Part shown: positions 2,338 through 18,783 of the stretch, in pieces | How the letters are laid out: each line of letters opens with the position of its first letter | Position numbering within the stretch: the first letter of the stretch is position 1 | Assembly: GCA_021770615.1 (NCBI GenBank) | Contig: JAETQR010000035.1 | Coordinates: 1 to 36,702, forward strand | Direction of reading: 5' to 3' | Length of the DNA stretch: 36,702 nt | Origin: Lachnospiraceae bacterium | GTDB lineage: Bacteria; Bacillota_A; Clostridia; Lachnospirales; Lachnospiraceae | The notes under the pieces: generated by a model | Told to the model about the DNA's origin: nothing | Seen by the model: the letters and a program-made list of their open reading frames with translations, nothing else | Databases searched by the model: none | Program-made: the position numbers and the translations under genes

Positions 2338-4245
2338 TTAAATGTTCCGGGGAAATTCCATGATAAATTTTGTTCCTCTGCCCACGACAGACCGGACGCT
2401 GATCGTCCCCCCCAGTTCAGTCACAATACTGTGTACAATATACAGCCCCAGTCCTGTACCATTTCCCCGATTATTCTCACCCACATAAAAACGTTTAAAC
2501 ACATGGGGCAGTTCCTCTTCCGGGATGCCACAGCCGCTGTCTTCTACCGTGACACAGATCTTCCCGTCCACAGCCCCGGCTGCTATCGTGATATTTCCGT
2601 TACCCGGCGTTGCCCGGAGCGCATTGTAAATGAGGTTTTCAAAAAGGATATCCAGTTTCTCCGGCTGTGCCATCAAAAACGCATCCTTCTGTGGCGGTTC
2701 TACATAAAAATGCACCGACCGGACTTCCGCTTCCCCATGATAGGTGGCATAAATTTCGTCAAGCAGTTCTTTTAAAGATACCCGAACCCATTCCCCCTCG
2801 ATCCTGTCCAGCGCATTAATGGAAGAAAGCCCCTGAAGACGTCTGGCCATTTCCTGCTGTTTTTCCTCTGCCAGATCGAGATATCCCTGCAATTCTGTAT
2901 CCACTCCCACACCGCTGCTGCGGATGGCCTGGATAAAAGACTGGGTGGCAAATACAGGCGCCTTCAGATCATGTGCCATATCAGAAAAGAATGCCTTGCG
3001 CTCTTCCAGAAGCTGTCTCACTTCCCTTGTACGCTCCTTTACCTGCTCCTCGAGATGATTCGTGAGCGCATCATTTTCCCGCAGGATATGACGATTATGT
3101 GACACCATCATGGCAGCAAATAACAACACCAGCAACAGCCCGCACCATTCAAACTGCCAGAAAAAACGAATTGGCTCGAAGCGGTTGGAGAAAAACAGGT
3201 TAACAAGCATCCCCGCTCCAAACACCACACAACCTGTTAGTGTATAACGGCTTTTCCAGTTTTGTGCGGTCATTCCCCGGACAGCAAAAAAAGCAGCTGT
3301 ACCAAAGATAGAAATATAATAAATATCCGTCAGCCTGCTATGGATAAAAACTGCCCATGGCAGTACCGGAATGAGAATGCCAAGTAAAAGAAGAAAAACG
3401 GGCAGCACGATCAAAACCGCCTTTATGCCCCGCCACCTGCCCAATGTACCGGAAGCCAGAACCGTAAGCTGCACCACACAAAAGCACAGACAATAGAATG
3501 CCAGATTCTGCACCAGGAACCAGTACTGTGCCACGGGCATAGAAAAAAGAAATACGAAATACCGAAACATATACAGGGCATAACAGCAGCACATCCGTCC
3601 AAACCAGCGGCTGAGGTTTCCTCCCTCCCGCCACAAAAACAGCGTGAACGCCGCCAGTGCCAACGGTAGCAGAAAAGCCAGCGCATAGGCAAAACTCTGA
3701 ATATTTTCCACGCGCTGGATCGTCCGATCCGTACCCAATGCCGGAGGAAAATACATCCCACTGTAATATCCTGCTTTTGATGAAGTCTCTACAGTCAGAA
3801 CATGATCGCCCGGTGTCAGTAAAAAGGTGATCCGTCCGTTTCCCATCCCCCGGGCACACTGCTCTCCATCCAAAAAAACCACATACTGCGAATAAAGTTC
3901 CGGAAAATCCACGGATACATTTTTTGAATCACCGTCATAACGCAGTGTCAGCTGATATCGTGCCTCTCCATGAGGCAAAACCGACAGTTCCCCTCTCTGA
4001 AGACTGGAGAACTCGCCGATATAAGTAAGCTTGTCCGTAATGCGTTCATCTGAAAGCAGCCAGCCATCAATAAGAAAAACAGGATTTTCCTGTTCCAGAT
4101 CCTCCCCGTTCAAAGTTATCACGCCGGATCTACCGTATGGAGGCGGCGTCTGGTATTTATTATCCCCATAATAGATCACTGTAAAAAAAACTACCAATAC
4201 AGCCAAAACAACCAGTGGCTGCCACCAGATTTTCTGCTGTTTCAT
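2338..4245 (-). CDS. 7TM receptor (7TMR-DISM-like) sensor histidine kinase
   Basis: The start at 4245 (MKQQKIWW) has an excellent AAAAGGAG site; the upstream in-frame ATG at 4272 lies inside the regulator gene. The 635-residue protein has an N-terminal membrane helix (about 9-26), an extracytoplasmic beta-rich domain (about 30-175), then about seven hydrophobic helices (183-385), a coiled linker, a HisKA domain with phosphoacceptor His425 in DMAHDLKAP, and a HATPase domain with N box ENLIYNALRATP, G1 VEDSGCGIP, F box and G2 GTGLGLYIV. All catalytic boxes look intact. It is read after the double regulator (23 bp gap), so it is the obvious partner. The layout matches 7TMR-DISM kinases, which often sense carbohydrate-type or envelope ligands; the ligand here is unknown. 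Confidence 0.88.
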   Translation of the reverse strand: MKQQKIWWQPLVVLAVLVVFFTVIYYGDNKYQTPPPYGRSGVITLNGEDLEQENPVFLIDGWLLSDERITDKLTYIGEFSSLQRGELSVLPHGEARYQLTLRYDGDSKNVSVDFPELYSQYVVFLDGEQCARGMGNGRITFLLTPGDHVLTVETSSKAGYYSGMYFPPALGTDRTIQRVENIQSFAYALAFLLPLALAAFTLFLWREGGNLSRWFGRMCCCYALYMFRYFVFLFSMPVAQYWFLVQNLAFYCLCFCVVQLTVLASGTLGRWRGIKAVLIVLPVFLLLLGILIPVLPWAVFIHSRLTDIYYISIFGTAAFFAVRGMTAQNWKSRYTLTGCVVFGAGMLVNLFFSNRFEPIRFFWQFEWCGLLLVLLFAAMMVSHNRHILRENDALTNHLEEQVKERTREVRQLLEERKAFFSDMAHDLKAPVFATQSFIQAIRSSGVGVDTELQGYLDLAEEKQQEMARRLQGLSSINALDRIEGEWVRVSLKELLDEIYATYHGEAEVRSVHFYVEPPQKDAFLMAQPEKLDILFENLIYNALRATPGNGNITIAAGAVDGKICVTVEDSGCGIPEEELPHVFKRFYVGENNRGNGTGLGLYIVHSIVTELGGTISVRSVVGRGTKFIMEFPRNI

Positions 4246-4268
4246 ATACTTCTCCTTTTTGTATGGCA

Positions 4269-5726
4269 TCAATGATCTTCCGGGACAAAACGGTATCCCT
4301 GTCCCCAGACTGTCTCAATAAAAAGATGTCCTCCCCACGCCTTTTCCAGTTTCCGCCGAAGTCTGGACATATGCGTCTGCACCATCTGTCCACCATCCCA
4401 CGCCTGGGAACCACAAACCATGTTAAAAATCTCCTGCGGCGTAAAAATATGTTCTGCCTGCTCCGAAATCCGCCACAAAATATCAAACTCAACCGGAGTA
4501 AGAGGCAGCTCATTCCCTTTCATCAATGCCTTATGTTCCGCGAGATCTAAGAGAAGCGAACCATAACATAACTGAGTCCGGTCAGATACAGCCAATTTGA
4601 TATGTGTCTCAATCTTCGCCCAGAAGAGATCGGCCGGAGTATCCTTGGTAATATATTCAATACCGCCAGCGGCAAATCCCTCGATCTGCCTGTCTGGTTC
4701 GGTAACACAGCTTAAAAAAATAACAGGTGTATTCACAGATTTGCGGAGTTCTTCGCAAATGGAAAATCCATCCTCACCGGGAATCATCACGTCTAACAGG
4801 ATACAGTCATAAGGATCACCGGACACCATTTTGACCGCATCCCCTCCATTCTCCGCAATTTGAACGATACAGCCGTGATGTCGCAGAATATCCGCCCAAA
4901 ACGTACGGTCAGAAGGATCATCGTCCACCAACAGGATCCGCCACGGGCCATCAGAGCGCACCTGCTTCCTGGCAAATCCGGGTTCCTGTGCATCCGGTGT
5001 CCGGACGACCATTCCTTCCTGATGCAAAAAATGCATATAGGCATCTTGTATCTCGTCACGCCGCCTTCTGGATACCGGAATATTATGTTCATTCTTTGTC
5101 ACAATACTACTAACGCCAACCGACTGCACATATTTTAAATTGACAAGATAGGAACGATGAGGTTTTATAAATTCCGGTCTTGGTAAAAGTTTTTCCTCAA
5201 TATCCGCCAAAGCTGCCGTCACCTCACGGACCACACCATCTGCCATATGGAAAGACACCGTTTTATTTATGACTTCCACATACTCCAGTCCCGTAAAAGA
5301 TATCATGGCAACACCTTTGCGGTCTTTCAGCACAAATCCCTGTTCTTCCTGCATGAACAGTTCACTCCCCACTCTGTCCAGCAGCGGAAAAAGTGAAGCA
5401 GCGTCTGCAGGTTTGAGTAAATAATAATATGCCCCCACACGATAACTCTCCACAGCAAATTCCGGCGATGAAGATATAAAAATGAGCTTAACATTTTTAT
5501 CCAGTTCTCTCAATTCCTGTGCAGCCTGTACCCCACTTATCCCCGGCATGAGAACATCCAGCAAAATGAGGTCATATTCCCCACCCTTCATATTACACAA
5601 AAAATCAGTACTATTATTAAAAAAACGACAGTCATTGCTCACCCCACGGCTCAACTGATACTCCGTGATCAGCTCCATGAGGTGGGCAAGTTCCTGTTCG
5701 TCGTCATCACAAACTGCTATCCGCAT
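4269..5726 (-). CDS. Double response regulator: REC-LytTR-REC-OmpR-type winged helix
   Basis: One 485-residue chain carries two complete response regulators. Residues 1-120 are a receiver (acidic DDD at 7-9, phosphoacceptor Asp57 in LILLDVLMPG, Lys105). Residues about 140-232 are a LytTR DNA-binding domain (FIKPHRSYLVNLKYV is diagnostic). Residues 262-380 are a second receiver (VDDDPSD, Asp312 in ILLDVMIPGEDG, Lys361), and 385-485 an OmpR/PhoB winged helix ending in ETVWGQGYRF. Both receivers keep their key residues, so both may be phosphorylated. The ATG at 5726 has an AGGGGG site. The gene is first in a two-gene operon with the kinase at 2338-4245. The two DNA-binding domains differ in fold and site type, so the protein could bridge two operator sites. 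Fusion rather than misassembly is supported by an uninterrupted frame through the junction (residues 235-262). Confidence 0.9.
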   Translation of the reverse strand: MRIAVCDDDEQELAHLMELITEYQLSRGVSNDCRFFNNSTDFLCNMKGGEYDLILLDVLMPGISGVQAAQELRELDKNVKLIFISSSPEFAVESYRVGAYYYLLKPADAASLFPLLDRVGSELFMQEEQGFVLKDRKGVAMISFTGLEYVEVINKTVSFHMADGVVREVTAALADIEEKLLPRPEFIKPHRSYLVNLKYVQSVGVSSIVTKNEHNIPVSRRRRDEIQDAYMHFLHQEGMVVRTPDAQEPGFARKQVRSDGPWRILLVDDDPSDRTFWADILRHHGCIVQIAENGGDAVKMVSGDPYDCILLDVMIPGEDGFSICEELRKSVNTPVIFLSCVTEPDRQIEGFAAGGIEYITKDTPADLFWAKIETHIKLAVSDRTQLCYGSLLLDLAEHKALMKGNELPLTPVEFDILWRISEQAEHIFTPQEIFNMVCGSQAWDGGQMVQTHMSRLRRKLEKAWGGHLFIETVWGQGYRFVPEDH

Positions 5727-9546: not shown

Positions 9547-10854
9547 TCAATCCTCCATGATATCCACATTCTCCCCCCGGAGGATCTTATTGATATTTCT
9601 CACCGCACACATCTTTCCGCACATCGTGCAGGTATCTTCTTTCTCCGGCTTACTTTCCGCACGGTAGCGGCGGGCCTTCTCCGGATCGATCGCGAGCTCA
9701 AACTGCTTTTCCCAGTCCAGATTTCTTCTGGCCTCACTCATCTCATAATCCCACTCCCTTGCACCCGGGATCCCCTTTGCCACATCAGCCGCATGCGCTG
9801 CGATCTTAGAGGCGATGATACCTTCCTTTACATCCTCCACGGTCGGCAGACGAAGGTGCTCAGCCGGTGTCACATAACATAGGAAAGATGCTCCGTATGT
9901 AGCAGCGATCGCTCCTCCGATCGCACTTGTAATGTGGTCATAACCCGGCGCCACATCTGTCACGAGAGGGCCAAGTACATAAAACGGCGCTCCTTTGCAT
10001 ACCGTCTGCTCAATCTCCATATTGGCACGGATCTGGTCAAGCGGCATATGGCCCGGCCCCTCGATCATGACCTGGACATTGTGCCTCCACGCACGCTGCG
10101 TCAGTTCGCCAAGCGCTACCAATTCTGAAATCTGGGAAATATCCCCGGCATCCTCGATGCTTCCCGGACGGCAGGCATCCCCAAGACTGATCGTCACATC
10201 ATATTTTTCACAGATATCTAAAAGTTCATCATATCTCTCATAAAACGGGTTTTCATTTCCCGTTAACTCCATCCACGCAAAGATGATCGAACCTCCCCGG
10301 GATACGATATTCGTATGACGCAGATTCTGCTTAAAACGGTCTGCAGTCGCACGGTTGATGCCACAGTGGATCGTCATAAAATCGACCCCGTCCTCTGCGT
10401 GCATCTTCACCACATCCATCCACTCATCTGCTGTGATATCCTTTAATGCCTTATTATAATATACAACAGCGTCATAAATCGGCACGGTACCGATGACAGC
10501 CGGACACTCAGCGATAAGTTTTCTCCTGAATTTTTTTGTATCTCCATAAGAGCTGAGATCCATGATTGCCTCCGCCCCCATGTCGACTGCCGCCTTTACC
10601 TTCTCCATCTCGACGTCCAGGTCGAGACAGTCCCGGCTCGTTCCGAGATTTACATTGATCTTCGTCTTTAATTTATTTCCAATCCCATATGGTTTCAGAC
10701 ATTTATGGTTTTTGTTCGCCGGGATCGCAATCTGTCCCTTTGCCACAAGTTCCATCAACACATCCTTTTCCATGTTCTCATATTCGCATATATACTTCAT
10801 CGCCTCCGTGAAAATTCCTTTTCTCGCGGCGTCCATCTGTGTCGTGTAATTCAT
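9547..10854 (-). CDS. thiC: Phosphomethylpyrimidine synthase ThiC
   Basis: ThiC is a radical-SAM enzyme that rearranges 5-aminoimidazole ribotide to hydroxymethylpyrimidine phosphate for thiamine. The 435-residue protein matches the short clade without the extra N-terminal domain. Visible hallmarks include [15 protein letters not shown], the MDLSSYGD segment, [60 protein letters not shown] and the C-terminal cluster-binding cysteines 409, 412 and 416 (CTMCGKMC, spacing CX2CX3C). ATG at 10854 follows a GGAGG site. It is a single-gene unit with its own promoter and terminator; no other thiamine gene is nearby. A ThiC paralogue making 5-hydroxybenzimidazole (BzaF) is an alternative I consider less likely because no cobamide gene is present. 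Confidence 0.95.
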
Positions 10855-10957
10855 CCGTACTGTCCTCCGTCAGTTCCCGGGATACCCCCGTATTTATAAT
10901 ATATCCCGGCAACACTGCCGGGGTTTGTCCATGGATTTTCAACCCATCCGGATTCTC
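10855..10957 (-). promoter_or_regulatory. Structured thiC leader without a recognisable TPP riboswitch
   Basis: The predicted mRNA leader is about 103 bases. It contains a perfect 7-bp hairpin CCCGGCA-gtgt-TGCCGGG (10903-10920), a small ATAC/GTAT hairpin after it, a possible GGGTT/AACCC pairing upstream, and the GGAGG ribosome binding site placed in the loop of ACTG...CAGT just before the start. The CUGAGA, ACC and GAACCUGAUC segments that define the TPP riboswitch are not seen. Control of thiC by this leader is an inference. Confidence 0.35.
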
Positions 10958-10963
10958 TCAACT

Positions 10964-10992
10964 ATTGTACTAGAAACCGATTTCATTGTCAA
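10964..10992 (-). promoter_or_regulatory. Strong sigma-A promoter of thiC
   Basis: Minus strand TTGACA (10987-10992), 17-bp spacer, TACAAT (10964-10969). The start would be near 10957. The right half lies only 17 bp from the long hairpin at 11010-11244. Confidence 0.75.
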
Positions 10993-11009
10993 CATTTGTG
11001 AAGTGCATG

Positions 11010-11244
11010 TTTGTGTCAGGGACTCATTGGCAATTCTTTCAGGTTCCGTATTTCATGGAAAAAGTTTACCCGCATGGGCGCTCCCGCTACAATAAGCACG
11101 CAGCGGTATGGGTGTGCAAAAGTGCAAAAAACATGCACTTCATACGCACACCTCATACCGGCGCACTTATAACCCATGCTCCGTAAATCTTTTTCCATGA
11201 AACACTGGTATTCTGAAAAGATTAGAATGAGTCCCTGACACAAA
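11010..11244. repeat. Long inverted-repeat element with REP-like ends (TGTGTCAGGGAC)
   Basis: A 19-bp perfect terminal inverted repeat (11010-11028 with 11226-11244, containing TGTGTCAGGGAC) encloses further nested pairing: TTTCATGGAAAAAG with CTTTTTCCATGAAA, GCATGGG with CCCATGC, and a central CGGTATG..GTGTGC arm with its complement. The whole 235-bp stretch can fold into one long interrupted hairpin and has no credible gene. Ends of the type GTGTCAGGGAC are known to me from REP sequences mobilised by RAYT (Y1) transposases in Clostridia; no such transposase is in the window. It sits between the thiC promoter and the next element. Confidence 0.6.
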
Positions 11245-11326
11245 GTTCTATCCAATCCGTATTTCTGATTTTGCCAACTACAATTTTACACTAACAAACA
11301 AATCGGCACGGAAATGAATTTGGAGC

Positions 11327-11549
11327 GGCCACAATTTATGGGAAGCTGACGAAGCTTCGTACAGCATCGGGAATATTTCCTGAAGAGGACCGTATAAACG
11401 TGTCGGTCCTTAGGCTGCGTACAAGGTGCAAAAATTGCACCTTGCAGCCTTTGTACCGCTACATGTTTATTTTAAGCGAAAGCGGGTCCACGTCAGGAAA
11501 TATTCCCGATGCTGTACAAATGTCACGATTCTCATAAATTGCGGCGGCC
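11327..11549. repeat. Long branched hairpin downstream of the xrtG operon; second member of the structured element family
   Basis: Nested pairings: GGCC..CAATTTATG (11327-11340) with CATAAATT..GGCC (11533-11549), a perfect 25-bp stem (11359-11383 with 11493-11517), GGACC (11387-11391) with GGTCC (11485-11489), ATAAAC (11394-11399) with GTTTAT (11465-11470), CGGT with ACCG, and an apical AAGGTGCAA/TTGCACCTT stem. The plus strand carries AGCGAAAGCG at 11475-11484. It begins 3 bp after the stop codon of the last operon gene (11553). It shares the arm sequences of 9433-9541. Confidence 0.6.
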
Positions 11550-11552
11550 ATC

Positions 11553-13988
11553 TCACTCTTCCCTGCTCCGCATCTGGATAATAACAAATGCAACCGCTGC
11601 CAGAGCTCCGAAAAGGCTCACTGCTATGCCAAGTGTCTTCTTCGGATAAACAATGTCAATCTTCGTATCCTTCTCTTCTACAAAAAGCAGGTTGTTTTCT
11701 GACCACATCTTCGTATCTGACACGAAATTATCCTGATAGGCGAGCGTCGTATTTATATTTTCTTCCTCTGACAGGATCTCAATCGCATCCATTCCGATCT
11801 TAAGCCGGATCGGAACGATCTGACGGTCCGGCAGCTCATCCCGCTTCACACCAAGCACCTCATCCATTACGGAAAACACTGCTGTATCCTCTGTCTCCAG
11901 CGCATGGTACATCAGATTGAGTCCGAGAAAATAAATATTCGGATCCGATTCATTCGTCCCCAGCCAGGCTAATTTTTGTCTGTCATATTCCATCTCACCC
12001 ATGACGTAGTCAACTTTTCCGATATATCCAGTAAACCACTCTGCATACTCTTCCGAAAAATCTTTCGTATGGATTTCTTTGTCCCCATACCGCAGCGCCG
12101 GAAAACGATCCTGGATCGTAACAGACTGGGATGTAACCCCGAGAAAACTTAACTGTTTTGTACTGCTGTCCTCCTGCACATGTGTGATATCGACGACAAC
12201 TTTTGTCCCGGCGGCCGCTGCCTCACGCAAAAGCTGCTCGGCCTTTTCTTTTTCATGATAATAAATTCCGCTGAGAAAAATCGTACGGTACTTCTTTAAC
12301 TCATCCAACGTATAGTCATCCACATAATCCGAATCCCCTTCCTGGAATGCCGGATAATATAATGTCATTACGTTGGCATACTTACCCAGTGCCAGCCCCG
12401 CATATTCAGATTTCACGCCAAACTGTTCCGGAGTCTCCTTTTTAAAAATATAAGCAGTATCCGTCTCTGCGCACAGAGAAAAACCATTCTTTTCTGCCCC
12501 GGCAAACACATCCGCGGTGGTACGTTCTTTCTTCCCGATCAATTCCTTTTTGATCAGGACGGTATCATTTCCCATCTCGATACAGCGGTCAAACAAATAA
12601 TCATAAGTTTCATACTCAAGCGCCGTGTTAAGCATCACGATATTGGAAGACGTCGTCGCTCCCTGCCAGGCCCATCCAAATGTACTTTTCACTGCATCCT
12701 CACCGGTACTGAGCCCCCACGAGGGATAAGAGCCGAATGAACTCAGATCCATCAGAGCCGTCCGGTATTCCGTATGCTCTTTTAACACACCTACATTTTC
12801 TACTGCTATCTCACTGGCAGGCGTGGCATACCTGGAAAAATTGAAAGAAGGGATACAGTCGATCGCAAGGATCACAAATGCAACGACACAATATTTGCGT
12901 TTGAGCGTCTTCCACTCCATCAGGGAAAATAGAAACATTGCATAAGCGATCGTGGCAAACCTCGACATCCAAAACAGGGTACTGAGAGGCATTTTCGACA
13001 AAAACGGGAGAAATGCCGGCGTACTCATGACCAGGATCAAAACAAATAAAATATATCCTGCACACTTTTTCCGGTCTGCCAGAAAGATACCGGCCACCGC
13101 CAGAAAGAGTACCGAAATCCCATAATAAAACGTATCCGTCACCCCTGATATCCGGTTCATGGGATTTAAAAGGGTAGAAAATCCCGCCATCCACATCCCC
13201 ATCACATCGATACTTGCAGAAGACTCCATATTCATGATACCACCGGAAAGCGCAGGCATCAGCCAGATCCCTACGAGAAGAAGTCCGATCACCATCGCCA
13301 CAAGCGTCTTAAAGGCCTTTTTAAAATTTTTGTTACTGATACAGTCAAATACCAGAAACACAAAAGCTGCGACGCCAAGCATCGCCGTGATCATAACATG
13401 GGACAGTATCATGACAGACATCGAAAGCATGATCCCAATGACAGAAAAACGTTTATCCCTTCTCAGATAACGCCACATAAAATAAACGACATAAGGAATC
13501 ACGATCGCCGACATCATACGGGGCATATTTCCCTCACAGAAATACACCCGGATATTTTCCGGCAAAAAAAACCAGAGAAGTGCAATTCCCGCTGCAAATA
13601 CCGGGCGCTTACTCTCCCTCCCCCACAGGATCCACGGAATTCCGCCTATTATAATAGAAAACGCCGCAAAATAGCGGTATGCCATCACGATATCCCCACC
13701 GGACAAAAACTCAAGAAAGGCCACCGCATAATAAGACATGGGAGCCCAGTACCGAAACAACTGGGTCCCGTTGTACCAGTACTCCGAATAAAGCTGATAC
13801 CACCGGCCTTCCTGCATATTATGATAGGCCACATCTCCTTTATAGAGATGACTCCAGATATCATTGCCGGACGGTTCAAATGCCATCCGGTTTAAAACAA
13901 GGACAACAACCACCGCCGATAGGACTAAAACCAGAAAACCAGCCAGGGCAAGTATATTATTTTTTGCACGGTCACTTATTTTTTTCAC
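11553..13988 (-). CDS. Large polytopic membrane protein, PTPS-related (PF10131-like), XrtG operon
   Basis: Last gene of the seven-gene operon; 811 residues. A first membrane helix (about 12-32) is followed by an outside loop with NDIWSHLYKGD and YWYNGTQLFRYWAPM, then about ten hydrophobic helices to about residue 400, a large soluble region (about 410-770) and a last helix (about 782-803) with a short RSREE end. This resembles the membrane protein family called 6-pyruvoyl-tetrahydropterin synthase related, which has the look of a GT-C-type glycosyltransferase with an early acidic residue (Asp39 here) in the first loop. The start is GTG at 13988 with a GGAGG site; it overlaps the preceding PTPS-like gene by 17 bp. 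Transfer of a lipid-linked sugar outside the membrane is a reasonable guess, not shown. Confidence 0.7.
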   Translation of the reverse strand: MKKISDRAKNNILALAGFLVLVLSAVVVVLVLNRMAFEPSGNDIWSHLYKGDVAYHNMQEGRWYQLYSEYWYNGTQLFRYWAPMSYYAVAFLEFLSGGDIVMAYRYFAAFSIIIGGIPWILWGRESKRPVFAAGIALLWFFLPENIRVYFCEGNMPRMMSAIVIPYVVYFMWRYLRRDKRFSVIGIMLSMSVMILSHVMITAMLGVAAFVFLVFDCISNKNFKKAFKTLVAMVIGLLLVGIWLMPALSGGIMNMESSASIDVMGMWMAGFSTLLNPMNRISGVTDTFYYGISVLFLAVAGIFLADRKKCAGYILFVLILVMSTPAFLPFLSKMPLSTLFWMSRFATIAYAMFLFSLMEWKTLKRKYCVVAFVILAIDCIPSFNFSRYATPASEIAVENVGVLKEHTEYRTALMDLSSFGSYPSWGLSTGEDAVKSTFGWAWQGATTSSNIVMLNTALEYETYDYLFDRCIEMGNDTVLIKKELIGKKERTTADVFAGAEKNGFSLCAETDTAYIFKKETPEQFGVKSEYAGLALGKYANVMTLYYPAFQEGDSDYVDDYTLDELKKYRTIFLSGIYYHEKEKAEQLLREAAAAGTKVVVDITHVQEDSSTKQLSFLGVTSQSVTIQDRFPALRYGDKEIHTKDFSEEYAEWFTGYIGKVDYVMGEMEYDRQKLAWLGTNESDPNIYFLGLNLMYHALETEDTAVFSVMDEVLGVKRDELPDRQIVPIRLKIGMDAIEILSEEENINTTLAYQDNFVSDTKMWSENNLLFVEEKDTKIDIVYPKKTLGIAVSLFGALAAVAFVIIQMRSREE

Positions 13989-14421
13989 CCTTAATATCCT
14001 CCAAAACCATATCTACCAGTGAATTTATGGAACGCTCTCTGTCACTTTCACTCTCGTCTGCAATGCTGATCACATAAGACCTCGCAGGCGTCTCGCTCAT
14101 CTCCATGGACAAAAACAGCCACCCCTCAGCCGCAAGGATCTCACTCAGACGGTCCTTAAAATAATGGCAGCAGTTTTCCAGGGTAGGATTGAGCACATCA
14201 AAGGGTTCCACCTCATTCAGACAAGTGTCCTGATAGGTATCCATAAACGTCTCAATCTTCTGTTCCAGTGCATGAAACTGAATAAATTCATCTCTCCCCT
14301 TTATGACATGAAGTGTGATCTCCCACGTATGGGGATGGGTCTCACCAAGATTTCCATTGATCAAAATAGCATGCCTTGCATTCAGATAAAATTTAAACCG
14401 GTACTGCCGGTATTTATTCAT
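13972..14421 (-). CDS. PTPS/QueD-like protein 1, catalytic residues missing (XrtG operon)
   Basis: A 149-residue protein of the 6-pyruvoyl-tetrahydropterin synthase / 6-carboxytetrahydropterin synthase fold. The three zinc-ligand histidines are kept (His17 in NARHAIL, His29 and His31 in THPH), as is NPTLEN with the pterin-anchoring Glu. The catalytic Cys that normally precedes the HGH motif is absent (NGNLGETHPH), and the usual Asp-His of LDHxxLN is replaced (QDTCLNE). It is therefore unlikely to be a working QueD, and no queuosine gene is nearby; PTPS-related proteins of this type are known companions of XrtG. ATG at 14421 has AAAGGAGG and overlaps the previous gene by 8 bp. Confidence 0.75.
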   Translation of the reverse strand: MNKYRQYRFKFYLNARHAILINGNLGETHPHTWEITLHVIKGRDEFIQFHALEQKIETFMDTYQDTCLNEVEPFDVLNPTLENCCHYFKDRLSEILAAEGWLFLSMEMSETPARSYVISIADESESDRERSINSLVDMVLEDIKGEKNK

Positions 14422-15505
14422 GGATCGCGCCTCCTTTCAGCCTCTCTTCATAAACCTCCATAGCACTTTGTCCCTCTTTGACCTCAACTACAGAAATCTC
14501 CATGCAGATCGCCTCATCATCCCCCTGCCGCCCCAGGCTCTCCTTGCACCGCTCCATAATGCGCACCGCCTCTTCATAGGTTGTCCGGTACATAAGAACG
14601 ACGAAACTGCCTTTTTTAATCTCTCCAAGCACATGTGTCCTGCCGAGAAAGCGCTTCAGGTTCTCCAATGCGCCAAAAATCTCCCCTCTTGAATAATACC
14701 GGCTCTCCATCACAATATCTGCAAACAGGATCTGCATCGGCATAAGCGCCTCATCATCCGATTTTTTCAAAAATACCCGGATCAATTCCGAATCATAAAA
14801 GTCGTGTTCCTCATAGTCTGCTTCCGAATGATTGTCTGGCTGTGTGATCATTGTATGCTCTCCGGATCTTTCCAGCTTTATATTTTGTTTTTTCATTTTT
14901 CCTTCTATTTCTAAAAGTGTATTTTCCACCACATTCAGTTTTGCTGTCAGACTGATCACTGCCATCACGGCAAGCATTGCCAGAATAGCAGAAAAAAGAT
15001 ACAGGTAAATTTCATGCTGCGGTAACTTTGTCTTAGAAAGTGCATAGGATTCTGACGTTATCACTCCGACAATATTCGTCTGCCCGGTTTTTACCGTCAC
15101 TGTCGTCACGATTCCCTCCTGACTGTTTAAGTCAGCAAGAAACGTATCCTTTTTCCTCGCCTCACGCAGTGAGTCCGTTGTCTGTTCGTCCTTTGCATAT
15201 ACTACTTCATCATCCCGGATCCAGAACATCCAGCTGTTAGCAGATACCTCTGCATTCTCAGAAAACCAGGCACTGATCTCTTCCTGGTCTTTCCCGGACG
15301 TCACAAGCTGTTCCAACTGATTTCCCAGTTGATCCGTATAACTTTGCTGCATCTGGTGGTACGTATCCAGATAAAATTCACGGTTCTTTTTGTTTTCCCA
15401 TAAAAGAAAGCACACTCCCGCCACGACCAGGACAGCCAGCGTGACGAGCACTGCCTTCATCCGGGTCTGCGGTTTTTTATAAAATCCTGTCAATCTGTTC
15501 ATCAA
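14414..15505 (-). CDS. Two-helix membrane sensor with degenerate GGDEF-like domain (XrtG operon)
   Basis: A 363-residue protein with membrane helices at about 17-34 and 168-188 flanking an outside sensor-like domain (about 35-165), then a cytoplasmic coil and a domain from about 225 that reads like a diguanylate-cyclase fold: MQILFADIV, GALENLKRFL, then LGEIKKGSFVVLMYRTTYEEA where an active enzyme has GGDEF. The metal and GTP residues are gone, so it is probably a receptor or scaffold rather than a cyclase. I infer the fold by pattern only. Start is TTG at 15505 (AGGGG site, spacing 9) or the ATG directly after it. Placed between the glycosyltransferase and PTPS-like genes, it could gate surface polymer synthesis. 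Confidence 0.6.
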   Translation of the reverse strand: MMNRLTGFYKKPQTRMKAVLVTLAVLVVAGVCFLLWENKKNREFYLDTYHQMQQSYTDQLGNQLEQLVTSGKDQEEISAWFSENAEVSANSWMFWIRDDEVVYAKDEQTTDSLREARKKDTFLADLNSQEGIVTTVTVKTGQTNIVGVITSESYALSKTKLPQHEIYLYLFSAILAMLAVMAVISLTAKLNVVENTLLEIEGKMKKQNIKLERSGEHTMITQPDNHSEADYEEHDFYDSELIRVFLKKSDDEALMPMQILFADIVMESRYYSRGEIFGALENLKRFLGRTHVLGEIKKGSFVVLMYRTTYEEAVRIMERCKESLGRQGDDEAICMEISVVEVKEGQSAMEVYEERLKGGAIHE

Positions 15506-15520
15506 ATTATGATTCCCCTT

Positions 15521-16894
15521 TTACATTTTCATATTGACTTCATTTCTCAGTTTCTCAAGCCCCTGCCGGAACCATATGAAATCCTCTCCCACCGTTTTTT
15601 TAACAGCCTGCCACTCTTCGGAAAAATTTCTCGTCCGCCATGTCTGTTCCCCTTTGATGGAATTGATGATACCGGCAAAGCGAAACCAGAAAACCATAAA
15701 ATTAAACAGAGGCAGGAAAAAGATCATATACCATTTCCTCGCATAATATTTCTGCAGATCCCTGAATTTTGATAAAAACAGTGTGATCGATATATACAAC
15801 AACAAAGAAGAAATTACATATAGAAGGTAAATGATCACCACTGACTGTATGACTAATTTCATCGGATAATTAATAAACGCAAGGCAGATCAGGGCAAAAT
15901 ACCAGATCATACGGGGAAAAGCAAACGTATGGTCAAACATGATGAGACGGATCACAAAATCAGAAAAAAATCCCTTCGCCGGGTTAAGCTTCTTTTTCAT
16001 AAACATGTGGACTACTTCCATTTCACCGCGCTGCCAGCGCTGTCTTTGGACATATAGCTTATTGATGCTCTCGATCGGATCCACAAAAAACATCGCCGAG
16101 TCACAAAGTACCACCTTTTCCTGCAGGTTATCCCGGATCTGGAACGTGACATGGGTATCTTCGCAGATCGTATCCGTATTATAAAGCTGGGTTTTTAAAA
16201 TAGAAGATTTGCGGAAAGCAGAAAAAGCTCCCGACATCGTAAAAATGCTATTAAATTCGGACTGAAAATTCCGCCCCGCTAAAAACGCCTGACAGTATTC
16301 AAAAAACTCCATTTTCAAAAAAAGGCGCCACAAAAATCCCTTTGAGTGATCGATCGCATCTGGATTTGTCATGATCGTACCTGTCACACAGTACACATCC
16401 GAATGATTCTCAAATTTTTTTACAATATTTCTCAGAGCATCCGGATGAAGCACTCCGTCAGAATCAATATGCATGATATACTTGCCAGAGCTGTTAAAGA
16501 GCGCAAGATTAAGTGCCTTTGATTTTCCCTGCTTGGAATTCATCCAGTTGATCGTAAGCTCCGGAAAATCTTTCTGACACTGGCAGAATACCTCAAAACT
16601 ATTGTCCCTGCTCATATTATTTACAAGCATGATATAGATCATCTTATTATCATAGTTGGAATCGTATACAGATTTGATGCAGTCATACAACGTATCCGCT
16701 GAATTGTATACCGGTATGATAAGCGTGATCTCCGGAAGATAAACAAGCTCTTTCTCATTTCTCTGCACGATCTTACGCTTGAGCAGGATAAAAAAATTAA
16801 AAATAGTTGGAATGATTTCCATCATAAGCGGGATAATGATCCACGCAACCCAGAAAACAACAGAACTCCTGAACAGATTAATGATCGCTTTCAT
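15521..16894 (-). CDS. Family 2 glycosyltransferase of the XrtG cluster (TIGR03111-like)
   Basis: A processive-type GT2 enzyme: one N-terminal helix (about 15-38), catalytic domain with LIIPVYNSADTL, the donor-binding HIDSDGVL (DxD), the catalytic CEDTHVTFQI and the Q(R)xRW box VQRQRWQRGEME, then about four helices (330-435). Its layout is that of hyaluronan/poly-GlcNAc synthase-like enzymes that build and extrude a polysaccharide. It overlaps xrtG by 17 bp and belongs to the Gram-positive exosortase cluster. Start: I prefer ATG at 16894; a GTG at 16906 (four residues longer) is possible, but its GAAGG site is only three bases away. Sugar specificity cannot be read from the sequence. Confidence 0.85.
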   Translation of the reverse strand: MKAIINLFRSSVVFWVAWIIIPLMMEIIPTIFNFFILLKRKIVQRNEKELVYLPEITLIIPVYNSADTLYDCIKSVYDSNYDNKMIYIMLVNNMSRDNSFEVFCQCQKDFPELTINWMNSKQGKSKALNLALFNSSGKYIMHIDSDGVLHPDALRNIVKKFENHSDVYCVTGTIMTNPDAIDHSKGFLWRLFLKMEFFEYCQAFLAGRNFQSEFNSIFTMSGAFSAFRKSSILKTQLYNTDTICEDTHVTFQIRDNLQEKVVLCDSAMFFVDPIESINKLYVQRQRWQRGEMEVVHMFMKKKLNPAKGFFSDFVIRLIMFDHTFAFPRMIWYFALICLAFINYPMKLVIQSVVIIYLLYVISSLLLYISITLFLSKFRDLQKYYARKWYMIFFLPLFNFMVFWFRFAGIINSIKGEQTWRTRNFSEEWQAVKKTVGEDFIWFRQGLEKLRNEVNMKM

Positions 16895-17471
16895 AATGGA
16901 ATGCACCTACCTTCTGCCTGATAATATGAGATTTGGTAAACACAAGGAAATACAACATAATCGTACATATATAGAAAAAAATACGCGCAAATACTGTGTG
17001 GGCATAAAAATAAATCCCATCTCCAAAAAAATAGATCAAAATACAGATCAGATAAATACGCAGTACATTGAAAAGAAAGATCGACAGGATTCCCCCAATG
17101 CTCACGACGATCTTCTCATGAAACCGGTACACCGGAAAAAACCAGAGCAACGCCAGAAAAGCCATCGTTTCTATGATTCCCGAGCACTCGAAATCAATAT
17201 ACAGCGACAGGCTGTTTCCCCCATTCTGGATAAACAGCATTCCTTTTTGGAAATAAGAATCAAAAACTCCGGTAAGCTCCCCAAGCATACCGGAGACAAC
17301 TGCTACTGCCTTCTGCAGCGGCACAACCAGTATCGGCTCGAGCCAGACCAGACAGAGCAGAAACATACCCACACTTCCCACCAGATACAGCCAGAAATCC
17401 AGCTTGCATCTTTTTAAAACAGTAAGCACGTAAACCCATATGATTGCAAATACAACAGATAACCAGTTCAT
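16878..17471 (-). CDS. xrtG: Exosortase family protein XrtG
   Basis: A 197-residue integral membrane protein with about six helices. It shows the exosortase/archaeosortase catalytic triad in the right order: Cys96 in DFECSGIIE, Arg138 in NVLRIYLI and His158 in FYAHTVFAR. Exosortases are transpeptidase-like enzymes that process proteins with a C-terminal sorting helix. The length and the surrounding genes (GT2, PTPS-related proteins) identify the Gram-positive type XrtG. Its ATG overlaps the stop codon of the upstream Firmicu-CTERM gene (ATGA), so enzyme and candidate substrate are translationally coupled. It is not related to LPxTG sortases. Confidence 0.9.
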   Translation of the reverse strand: MNWLSVVFAIIWVYVLTVLKRCKLDFWLYLVGSVGMFLLCLVWLEPILVVPLQKAVAVVSGMLGELTGVFDSYFQKGMLFIQNGGNSLSLYIDFECSGIIETMAFLALLWFFPVYRFHEKIVVSIGGILSIFLFNVLRIYLICILIYFFGDGIYFYAHTVFARIFFYICTIMLYFLVFTKSHIIRQKVGAFHYESDH

Positions 17472-18202
17472 CGTACCATTTTCCTTCTTTTTCGATATCG
17501 ATCCAAACCAATCACACTAACTGCAAATACAAAACCAATACCCACTCCCACTAACGGTGATGTGGAGGATCCGGCATATATAAGAGCCTCTGCACCGATA
17601 TTCGGATTTCTTACCGAAATCGTATCAATACTGTCTGCCTCAATTCCAAAATATTTCGTAATATCTTTCATGCTGATACGAAATTCGATCTCATCTCCTT
17701 TTGTATCTGTCGCATGATCCTTATCATATACGGTAAACGCCACCGAACTGTCACAGGATGTATAGTATCCAAGGAATACAGCAAGATTCTTGTGTGTTCC
17801 TTCTGACATACCACCATAGATCGGCACATTCCAATCAATCGCCCCGGTGTCGTCTACACCGAGGATCGGTATCGCGATCTCCTGATCATTGATCTTCAGC
17901 AAGAAGGACTGAATCGACATCTGGCTCTGATACAGCTTATCCATACTTACATGGACATACAGGTAATCTCCATCGCTGTATATATTTCCCTTATGGATAC
18001 AGACTGCATTATTCGAGCGGTAGGTAATATCCGTATCCGGAAAATCTTTCCACTCATCATAATATCCGTCAATACGAATCCCATCTGAACCGACATTCAA
18101 TGCATCCTGTTCTTTTGCATATGAAATTTCCGTCAAAAGCAGTATCCCTATTATAACAACTACCACCGATAACGCAGTCATTCTTTTCAGCATTTTTTTC
18201 AT
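17468..18202 (-). CDS. Secreted protein with Firmicu-CTERM-like sorting tail, candidate XrtG substrate
   Basis: The 244-residue protein has a signal peptide (about 1-29, ending ISYAKEQ), a beta-rich body starting IRIDGYYDEWKDFPD, which resembles CBM9/DOMON-type sugar or heme-binding domains, and a C-terminal tripartite tail: small polar SSTSP, hydrophobic helix LVGVGIGFVFAVSVIGL and basic RYRKRRK. That tail fits the Firmicu-CTERM signal described with XrtG. ATG at 18202 has AAAGGGGG. It is directly upstream of and overlaps xrtG. Being the only such tail in the window, it is the best candidate for XrtG processing, perhaps coupled to glycan attachment. Confidence 0.8.
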   Translation of the reverse strand: MKKMLKRMTALSVVVVIIGILLLTEISYAKEQDALNVGSDGIRIDGYYDEWKDFPDTDITYRSNNAVCIHKGNIYSDGDYLYVHVSMDKLYQSQMSIQSFLLKINDQEIAIPILGVDDTGAIDWNVPIYGGMSEGTHKNLAVFLGYYTSCDSSVAFTVYDKDHATDTKGDEIEFRISMKDITKYFGIEADSIDTISVRNPNIGAEALIYAGSSTSPLVGVGIGFVFAVSVIGLDRYRKRRKMVR

Positions 18203-18217
18203 GCACGATTCCCCCTT

Positions 18218-18667
18218 TTACTTCTCCATCATGCTCAAAAGTTTTTTCTTCCGGTTCAAAATATCTTCAATTCCCTGCCTGCTCTCTTTCTCAGATCTCG
18301 TATGCAACATGATCCGGTTCGATATCATATAGACACACAACGGATTTTCAGAAATTTCAAGCTGATAAAGCCGAAATCCCTTCTTCTTCATCCAATTCAG
18401 GATATCATCATAAAACACTTCGCCGATATCTTCAATACTTGTTCCCAGATTCCGGAATTCCTCCATGTCATTCAGATATTTTCCCTCATAACGTTTCAAA
18501 TATTCCCTGACACTCCGATCCATATCATGAAACAGATATTGTTTATCTATGTTGTGAACACCTACATATAATACAAGCTGAAAAGTATGATAATGCTCGT
18601 TCTTCCTGTCTCCATCCACACTGTGCCCCGCATTAAAATAGTACTTGTAAATATAATATTCCCGCAT
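18218..18667 (-). CDS. PTPS/QueD-like protein 2, catalytic residues missing (first gene of XrtG operon)
   Basis: A 149-residue relative of the PTPS/QueD fold: Tyr-rich first strand YYIYKYYFNAGHS with zinc ligand His15, then His25 and His27 in NEHYHTFQL. The catalytic Cys before the second histidine pair is missing and the usual NPTxEN is changed to GTSIED. It is only distantly similar to the second PTPS-like protein of this operon (13972-14421), yet has the same length. Loss of catalytic residues in both suggests a structural or ligand-binding role for a zinc-bound PTPS fold in surface glycan assembly. The ATG at 18667 has a weak GGTGAG site; 15 bp separate it from the next gene. Confidence 0.7.
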   Translation of the reverse strand: MREYYIYKYYFNAGHSVDGDRKNEHYHTFQLVLYVGVHNIDKQYLFHDMDRSVREYLKRYEGKYLNDMEEFRNLGTSIEDIGEVFYDDILNWMKKKGFRLYQLEISENPLCVYMISNRIMLHTRSEKESRQGIEDILNRKKKLLSMMEK

Positions 18668-18783
18668 TCACTCACCATTTCCATGTCAAAATCATAATTT
18701 TTTTATATATTTCTACTTCGACAATTTCTCATTATTATTTTACCACTTACATAAAAATTTTTCAATAAAATATTGCCGCCATT

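Follow-up and report, generated by a model that had tools for sequence, protein, structure and literature searches.

The action of exosortases on their bacterial substrates is still open, and in genomes with many substrates it is hard to test. A stretch of 36,702 nucleotides from a Lachnospiraceae bacterium (GenBank assembly GCA_021770615.1, contig JAETQR010000035.1), hereafter the window, contains an operon around the exosortase XrtG and raises the question of what such an enzyme achieves for the one candidate substrate encoded beside it. The XrtG locus offers a one-enzyme, one-substrate pair in one operon, and a fusion found in relatives, which replaces the reaction, represents a natural experiment. 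The operon probably makes a surface sugar polymer, with one exosortase anchoring a single sugar-binding-like protein. With moderate confidence, we propose that one CBM9-like glycan-binding protein is held at the membrane glycan synthase by the reaction of XrtG, for which a permanent tether can substitute.

The XrtG operon and its single candidate substrate

The seven genes, all on the minus strand, run from PTPS1 through CTERM, XrtG, GT2, SENS and PTPS2 to GT-C and are preceded by a promoter-like site:

18737..18765, minus: promoter-like site (TTGAAA-17-TAAAAT, with TG) some 70 bp upstream of PTPS1
18218..18667, minus: PTPS1, small PTPS-fold protein (TIGR03112 100 bits, PF01242; two-histidine motif HxH)
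17468..18202, minus: CTERM, with a signal peptide-like helix, a predicted CBM9-like beta domain (about residues 41-215) and a Firmicu-CTERM tail
16878..17471, minus: XrtG exosortase (TIGR03110 196 bits; C96/R138/H158)
15521..16906, minus: GT2, membrane glycosyltransferase of the processive type (TIGR03111 655.5 bits; DxD, ED, QRQRW)
14414..15505, minus: SENS, with a transmembrane helix, an extracytoplasmic alpha/beta domain, a second transmembrane helix and a predicted degenerate GGDEF-fold domain (residues 231-362)
13972..14421, minus: PTPS2, PTPS-fold protein (TIGR03112 145.7 bits; zinc-type histidine set)
11553..13988, minus: GT-C-like polytopic membrane protein (PF10131 PTPS_related 626.1 bits)

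Promoter-like sites in the scanned region are no commoner than chance (17 vs a mean of 19.2 in shuffles). The original prediction, made from the letters alone, had described a complete seven-gene XrtG operon, and the open reading frames were found accordingly. Its overlaps of 17, 8, 17 and 4 bp are correct (PTPS2/GT-C, SENS/PTPS2, xrtG/GT2 and CTERM/xrtG, respectively), with the xrtG/GT2 value of 17 bp requiring the alternative GT2 start, an ATG at 16894; from the upstream GTG it amounts to 29 bp. Gaps of 15 bp each separate PTPS1 from CTERM and GT2 from SENS, the latter counted from its TTG. Six of the seven proteins exceed the curated cut-offs of their predicted NCBIfam and Pfam families, i.e., XrtG for TIGR03110 (cut-off 102.75 bits), GT2 for TIGR03111 (363.95), both PTPS-like proteins for TIGR03112 (69.35), CTERM for TIGR04145 (144.6 vs 50 bits) and GT-C for PF10131 (26.4). 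Thus, the check by family models that had been proposed came out positive for all four NCBIfam models, and the assignments of a processive-type GT2, which carries the DxD, ED and QxxRW motifs, of two PTPS-like proteins and of a GT-C-like membrane protein are borne out. SENS is the exception; Pfam gave nothing for it at E 0.01, and no NCBIfam model comes close to its cut-off. Cys96, Arg138 and His158, suggested as the catalytic set, align with conserved residues of XrtG relatives; the best 120 of 206 relatives of the window XrtG (at least 54% identity) feature the cysteine and the arginine in all 120 and the histidine in 119, with one gap. The clustering of XrtG with GT2 and PTPS-related genes, mentioned in the prediction, corresponds to a named NCBI system.

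XrtG was searched for in three overlapping genome draws and occurs in 28 of 397 genomes of the G205 family (all above cut-off), 16 of 398 of the G001 phylum (11 above) and 14 of 63 of the G016 order (13 above). Neighbourhoods were examined in 49 stretches, locus L001 and three plasmid records. In 43 of 44 loci GT2 comes directly after XrtG, and the two usually overlap; the remaining locus stops at a contig end, and L084, where both share one frame, was left out of this count. The XrtG copy of Lachnospira eligens is carried by a replicon of 627 kb. A search of plasmids gave four records with either query; the XrtG operon of Lactococcus lactis plasmid pBV60 (L005, 4407-10691), which includes GGDEF and EAL genes, is a portable form of the system, the plasmid being predicted to be conjugative. 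Lactiplantibacillus plantarum was reported to carry the XrtG system, with higher transcripts in interferon-inducing strains, in a study titled on self-aggregation (PMC12854382); this rise fits a surface or aggregation role.

The tail of CTERM is tripartite according to tail alignment and helix prediction, consisting of the motif G-S-S-T-S-P, a transmembrane helix (216-243) and the basic end RYRKRRK. Of 41 XrtG-positive genomes searched with TIGR04145 (G001, the 28 from the G205 family and 12 with more distant XrtG types), 30 gave a match, 26 of them above cut-off. In all 29 genomes comprising G001 and the G205 family type, a match lies no more than 2.6 kb from xrtG and shares its contig; among the 12 distant ones, G283 alone matches, weakly (21 bits) and on another contig. 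Additional matches in the 29 genomes are tandem copies of the body in the same frame, with two exceptions (G464:C83:9311-9802 and G767:C26:7978-8166), very long frames of 1750 and 1591 amino acids with a TIGR04145-like body in which the match falls short of the tail. A tail-only profile was built from 22 tails, 21 of them from these genomes and hence self-matches by construction; its best match is the xrtG-neighbouring gene, at E ≤ 0.001, in 24 of the 29 genomes, the tail being weak or unscored in the other five, and its best match at any other locus has E 0.0135 (G537:C14). The many further Firmicu-CTERM proteins elsewhere that would contradict a dedicated pair were not found in these 29 relatives. 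The pair of XrtG and CTERM is thus dedicated in relatives, and a single dedicated substrate, as originally claimed, is seen in 29 of 29 relatives of this type. The broader proposal, a one-substrate sorting machine coupling a surface protein to a glycan or lipid, is partly supported overall.

A fused branch of XrtG without the catalytic cysteine

Ten loci in nine genomes (L106 among them being cut by a contig end) encode an XrtG of about 400 amino acids in which a CBM9-like body is joined just ahead of the first transmembrane helix. Against the stand-alone body of L081, the fused bodies score 121-142 bits; their direct profile match to the CTERM body of the window is modest. The catalytic cysteine is lost in all ten (nine Asn, one Ser) and kept in 44 of 44 unfused loci. 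Nevertheless, Glu95, Gly98, Glu101, Asn135 and Arg138 are kept in 10/10, five pairs give a dN/dS of 0.08-0.135 for the XrtG part, and the loci still lie beside GT2, PTPS and GT-C. The 48 relatives found with one fused member, drawn from the 7,999 scored candidates sharing most words and regarded as fused by length and coverage, contain no cysteine at this place (35 Asn, 13 Ser), the arginine in all and the histidine in 44 (Gln in four); 46 of them measure 393-403 amino acids, the others 388 and 284, the latter being partial. Syntrophomonas wolfei is among the named fused members. In the nine fused genomes, the exosortase/archaeosortase signature finds the fused genes only and no second exosortase, and TIGR04145 gave no match in the six of them that were searched. 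The fused, Cys-less protein of L085 passes TIGR03110 (105.2 vs 102.75 bits) and several such proteins are labelled XrtG, which calls for caution in annotation.

Relatives with the body fused onto XrtG have lost the nucleophile and kept the rest of the machine, which points to retention as the purpose. Because a fixed tether can substitute for the reaction, XrtG would serve to keep the glycan-binding protein at the synthase instead of releasing it into the matrix. Based on family and motifs, GT2 would polymerize a sugar at the membrane, and GT-C may modify or extend the polymer on the outer face. SENS might perceive an outside signal and relay it inward via its predicted GGDEF-fold domain and the zinc-type PTPS2. 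The CTERM protein would be exported and held by its tail helix, upon which XrtG could cleave the tail at G-x-S-T/S-G via Cys96; by analogy to ArtA of Haloferax, the cut protein may then be re-attached to a membrane amine, probably a lipid. The glycan-binding protein would in this way stay at the membrane machine.

Tentatively, and with somewhat less confidence than for retention itself, XrtG can be assigned two separable roles, the Cys-dependent re-anchoring of one glycan-binding protein and that of a structural subunit of the GT2 synthase. In the Syntrophomonas type, fusion of the substrate might have made the first role needless, leaving a selected pseudo-exosortase as a mount. If true, this would be the first exosortase to become a non-enzymatic scaffold bearing its former substrate, as far as the literature was searched, and it would demonstrate that the reaction serves retention and not release. 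No title on an exosortase fused to its own substrate occurs among the literature matches listed, and no paper on Syntrophomonas wolfei together with an exosortase was found in the literature searched. Some observations weigh against this account. I142 and F178 also differ in the fused forms. Two changes are required by the trees, which place unfused relatives within the fused group at weak support and neither show nor reject a single clade for the fused forms. The fused set may accordingly be one event, with an uncertain order of steps.

Signal input, glycan synthesis and competing explanations

Neither Pfam, run on five SENS relatives, nor a PDB sequence search with a SENS profile (best E 0.019, a cohesin subunit) gave a convincing family. 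By fold search, a GGDEF fold was predicted for the C-terminus, and by topology the extracytoplasmic domain is a Cache/PAS-like candidate. The place of the GG(D/E)EF signature of diguanylate cyclases reads KKGSF in the window. It is conceivable, if rather doubtful, that cyclic di-GMP switches the synthase via this degenerate domain, as in the literature precedents PssE (Listeria Pss) and PelD (Pel). Besides the predicted fold, the GGDEF and EAL genes of the Lactococcus operon are in line with such a switch. The co-occurrence of GGDEF with XrtG is suggestive, with at least ten GGDEF matches in 29/29 XrtG genomes vs 8/20 XrtG-negative genomes of the same family draw, these controls being the first listed and unmatched by genus, with some GGDEF in 16. 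However, the RxxD I-site is missing across the SENS family (Arg in 3/38 and Asp in 0/38 at the aligned places), and three of the SENS-PTPS2 fusions (which occur in L051, L058, L062 and L077) lack the GGDEF-fold domain. The hidden fold provides a testable signal input for the operon.

It seems unlikely that XrtG joins CTERM covalently to the operon's glycan or sets it free into the wall or matrix, an idea that goes back to the original prediction and to early work on PEP-CTERM/EpsH (PMC1569441). The constant neighbourhood with a processive GT2 and the CBM9-like body of CTERM agree with it, yet in the fused relatives release or transfer of the body by cysteine chemistry is impossible, and XrtG is under purifying selection there beside GT2, PTPS and GT-C.

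Retention of CTERM at a glycan synthase is preferred here. QxxRW is present in 44/44 GT2 proteins and the strict D-S/A-D-G pattern in 32/44. According to TIGR03937, the window GT2 is not a PgaC/IcaA poly-N-acetylglucosamine synthase (134.2 bits vs a cut-off of 422.3). At L059:5214-8153 and L064:8935-11811, GT2 carries a fused phosphoglycerol-transferase-like domain, which suggests a putative glycerol-phosphate decoration of the polymer; the L059 protein scores 71.5 bits with Sulfatase and 181.6 bits with the phosphoglycerol transferase I model, below the cut-off of 572 for the latter. PTPS is fused to GT-C in L079 (by Pfam), L071 (by reading of the sequence) and further distant loci (by similarity), and GT-C to a CBM9-like body with tail in L079, L080, L082 and L083. 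Because of these fusions, PTPS, GT-C and the CBM9-like body can be attributed to one membrane complex.

QueD/PTPS enzymes need a catalytic cysteine between the first histidine and HxH. PTPS2 keeps the PTPS fold and the zinc-type set H..HPHTWE, and a pterin cofactor or signal as the product of the PTPS-like genes, in a cluster only partly related to glycans, was considered; this is very improbable, given that neither PTPS-like protein of the window has a cysteine in the 24 residues ahead of HxH (the place being judged by eye), that the QueD model stays far below its cut-off (30.2 and 21.6 vs 89.25 bits) and that SENS and GT-C each occur in relatives as fusions with PTPS-like parts. Four of 31 motif-bearing PTPS2 rows do have a cysteine within 24 residues before the motif, each preceding the first histidine. 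That the fused XrtG is a decaying gene and uninformative on function is hardly credible, as the lost nucleophile, the histidine missing in 4/48 and the changes at I142 and F178 are outweighed by intact frames and purifying selection across the clade, five other conserved residues and a steady length.

Neighbouring genes and comparison with known systems

Polyprenyl-phosphate glycosyltransferase-like (by eye) and GtrA-like genes lie inside the operon in L001 (12733-13958) and L052, where they might supply GT-C with sugar donors; neither has a match in the window. A family of proteins of 700-744 amino acids is encoded no more than 7 kb from xrtG in seven loci, which include both XrtG types (L074, L075, L073, L069, L085, L086 and L087), e.g.:

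L074:12587-14749, member of the 700-744 amino acid family
L075:15141-17375, member of the same family

Pfam gave no family for the two scanned members (720 and 744 amino acids), both of which, judged by eye, seem to carry a CBM9-like stretch at their end. They are perhaps unrecognised glycosidases, a label that we infer for the 744 amino acid protein because a weak GH2-domain match (E 0.038) is the sole lead.

Elsewhere in the window, a protein of 485 amino acids (4269-5726, minus strand) appears by eye to combine a receiver, a LytTR-like domain, a second receiver and a winged helix in a single chain; its gene adjoins a histidine kinase-like one (2338-4272). The region 9547-11552 (minus strand) holds a thiC-like gene (by eye), preceded by about 700 bp without an open reading frame of 80 amino acids; Rfam found no match there, so no thiamine pyrophosphate riboswitch at the gathering score, and nothing at gathering scores over the whole window.

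The window locus belongs to the XrtG/Firmicu-CTERM system named by NCBI, with TIGR03110, TIGR03111, TIGR03112 and TIGR04145 above cut-off; the fifth model, TIGR03766, is matched in the Lactococcus copy and not in the window, and the GGDEF-fold sensor has no model. For the fold of SENS, the fusions and the nucleophile-less branch, no description was found in the literature searched, which excluded Haft 2012 (PMC3256604). ArtA of Haloferax with PGF-CTERM shares the cysteine enzyme and the tripartite substrate tail, and lipid re-anchoring was proposed for it (PMC7157517). ArtA acts on more than one substrate, whereas XrtG in relatives has one per genome, in the operon. In the PEP-CTERM/EpsH system, an exosortase with the Cys/Arg/His set occurs among polysaccharide genes as well (PMC1569441). 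Genomes of that system feature a median of eight substrates, mostly in single-gene operons, in contrast to the single one here; the fusions described for EpsH in that report join it to an EpsI-like or CAAX-protease-like domain, and EpsH is said there to be without a sorting domain. Listeria Pss (PssE) and Bacillus cereus Pel (PelD) likewise unite a polysaccharide machine with a degenerate GGDEF protein; compared with them, SENS lacks the RxxD I-site, and the exosortase, CTERM and PTPS parts are additional. The gts operon of Lactobacillus acidophilus, linked to exopolysaccharide and co-aggregation, combines a BcsA/PgaC-like GT2 with a cyclic di-GMP receptor (PMC6123363). This receptor is a degenerate EAL protein, and the terms "exosortase" and "6-pyruvoyl" are absent from the main text of that paper. 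Altogether, the window locus belongs to a known system, and the variant, the fused branch, is found in its relatives.
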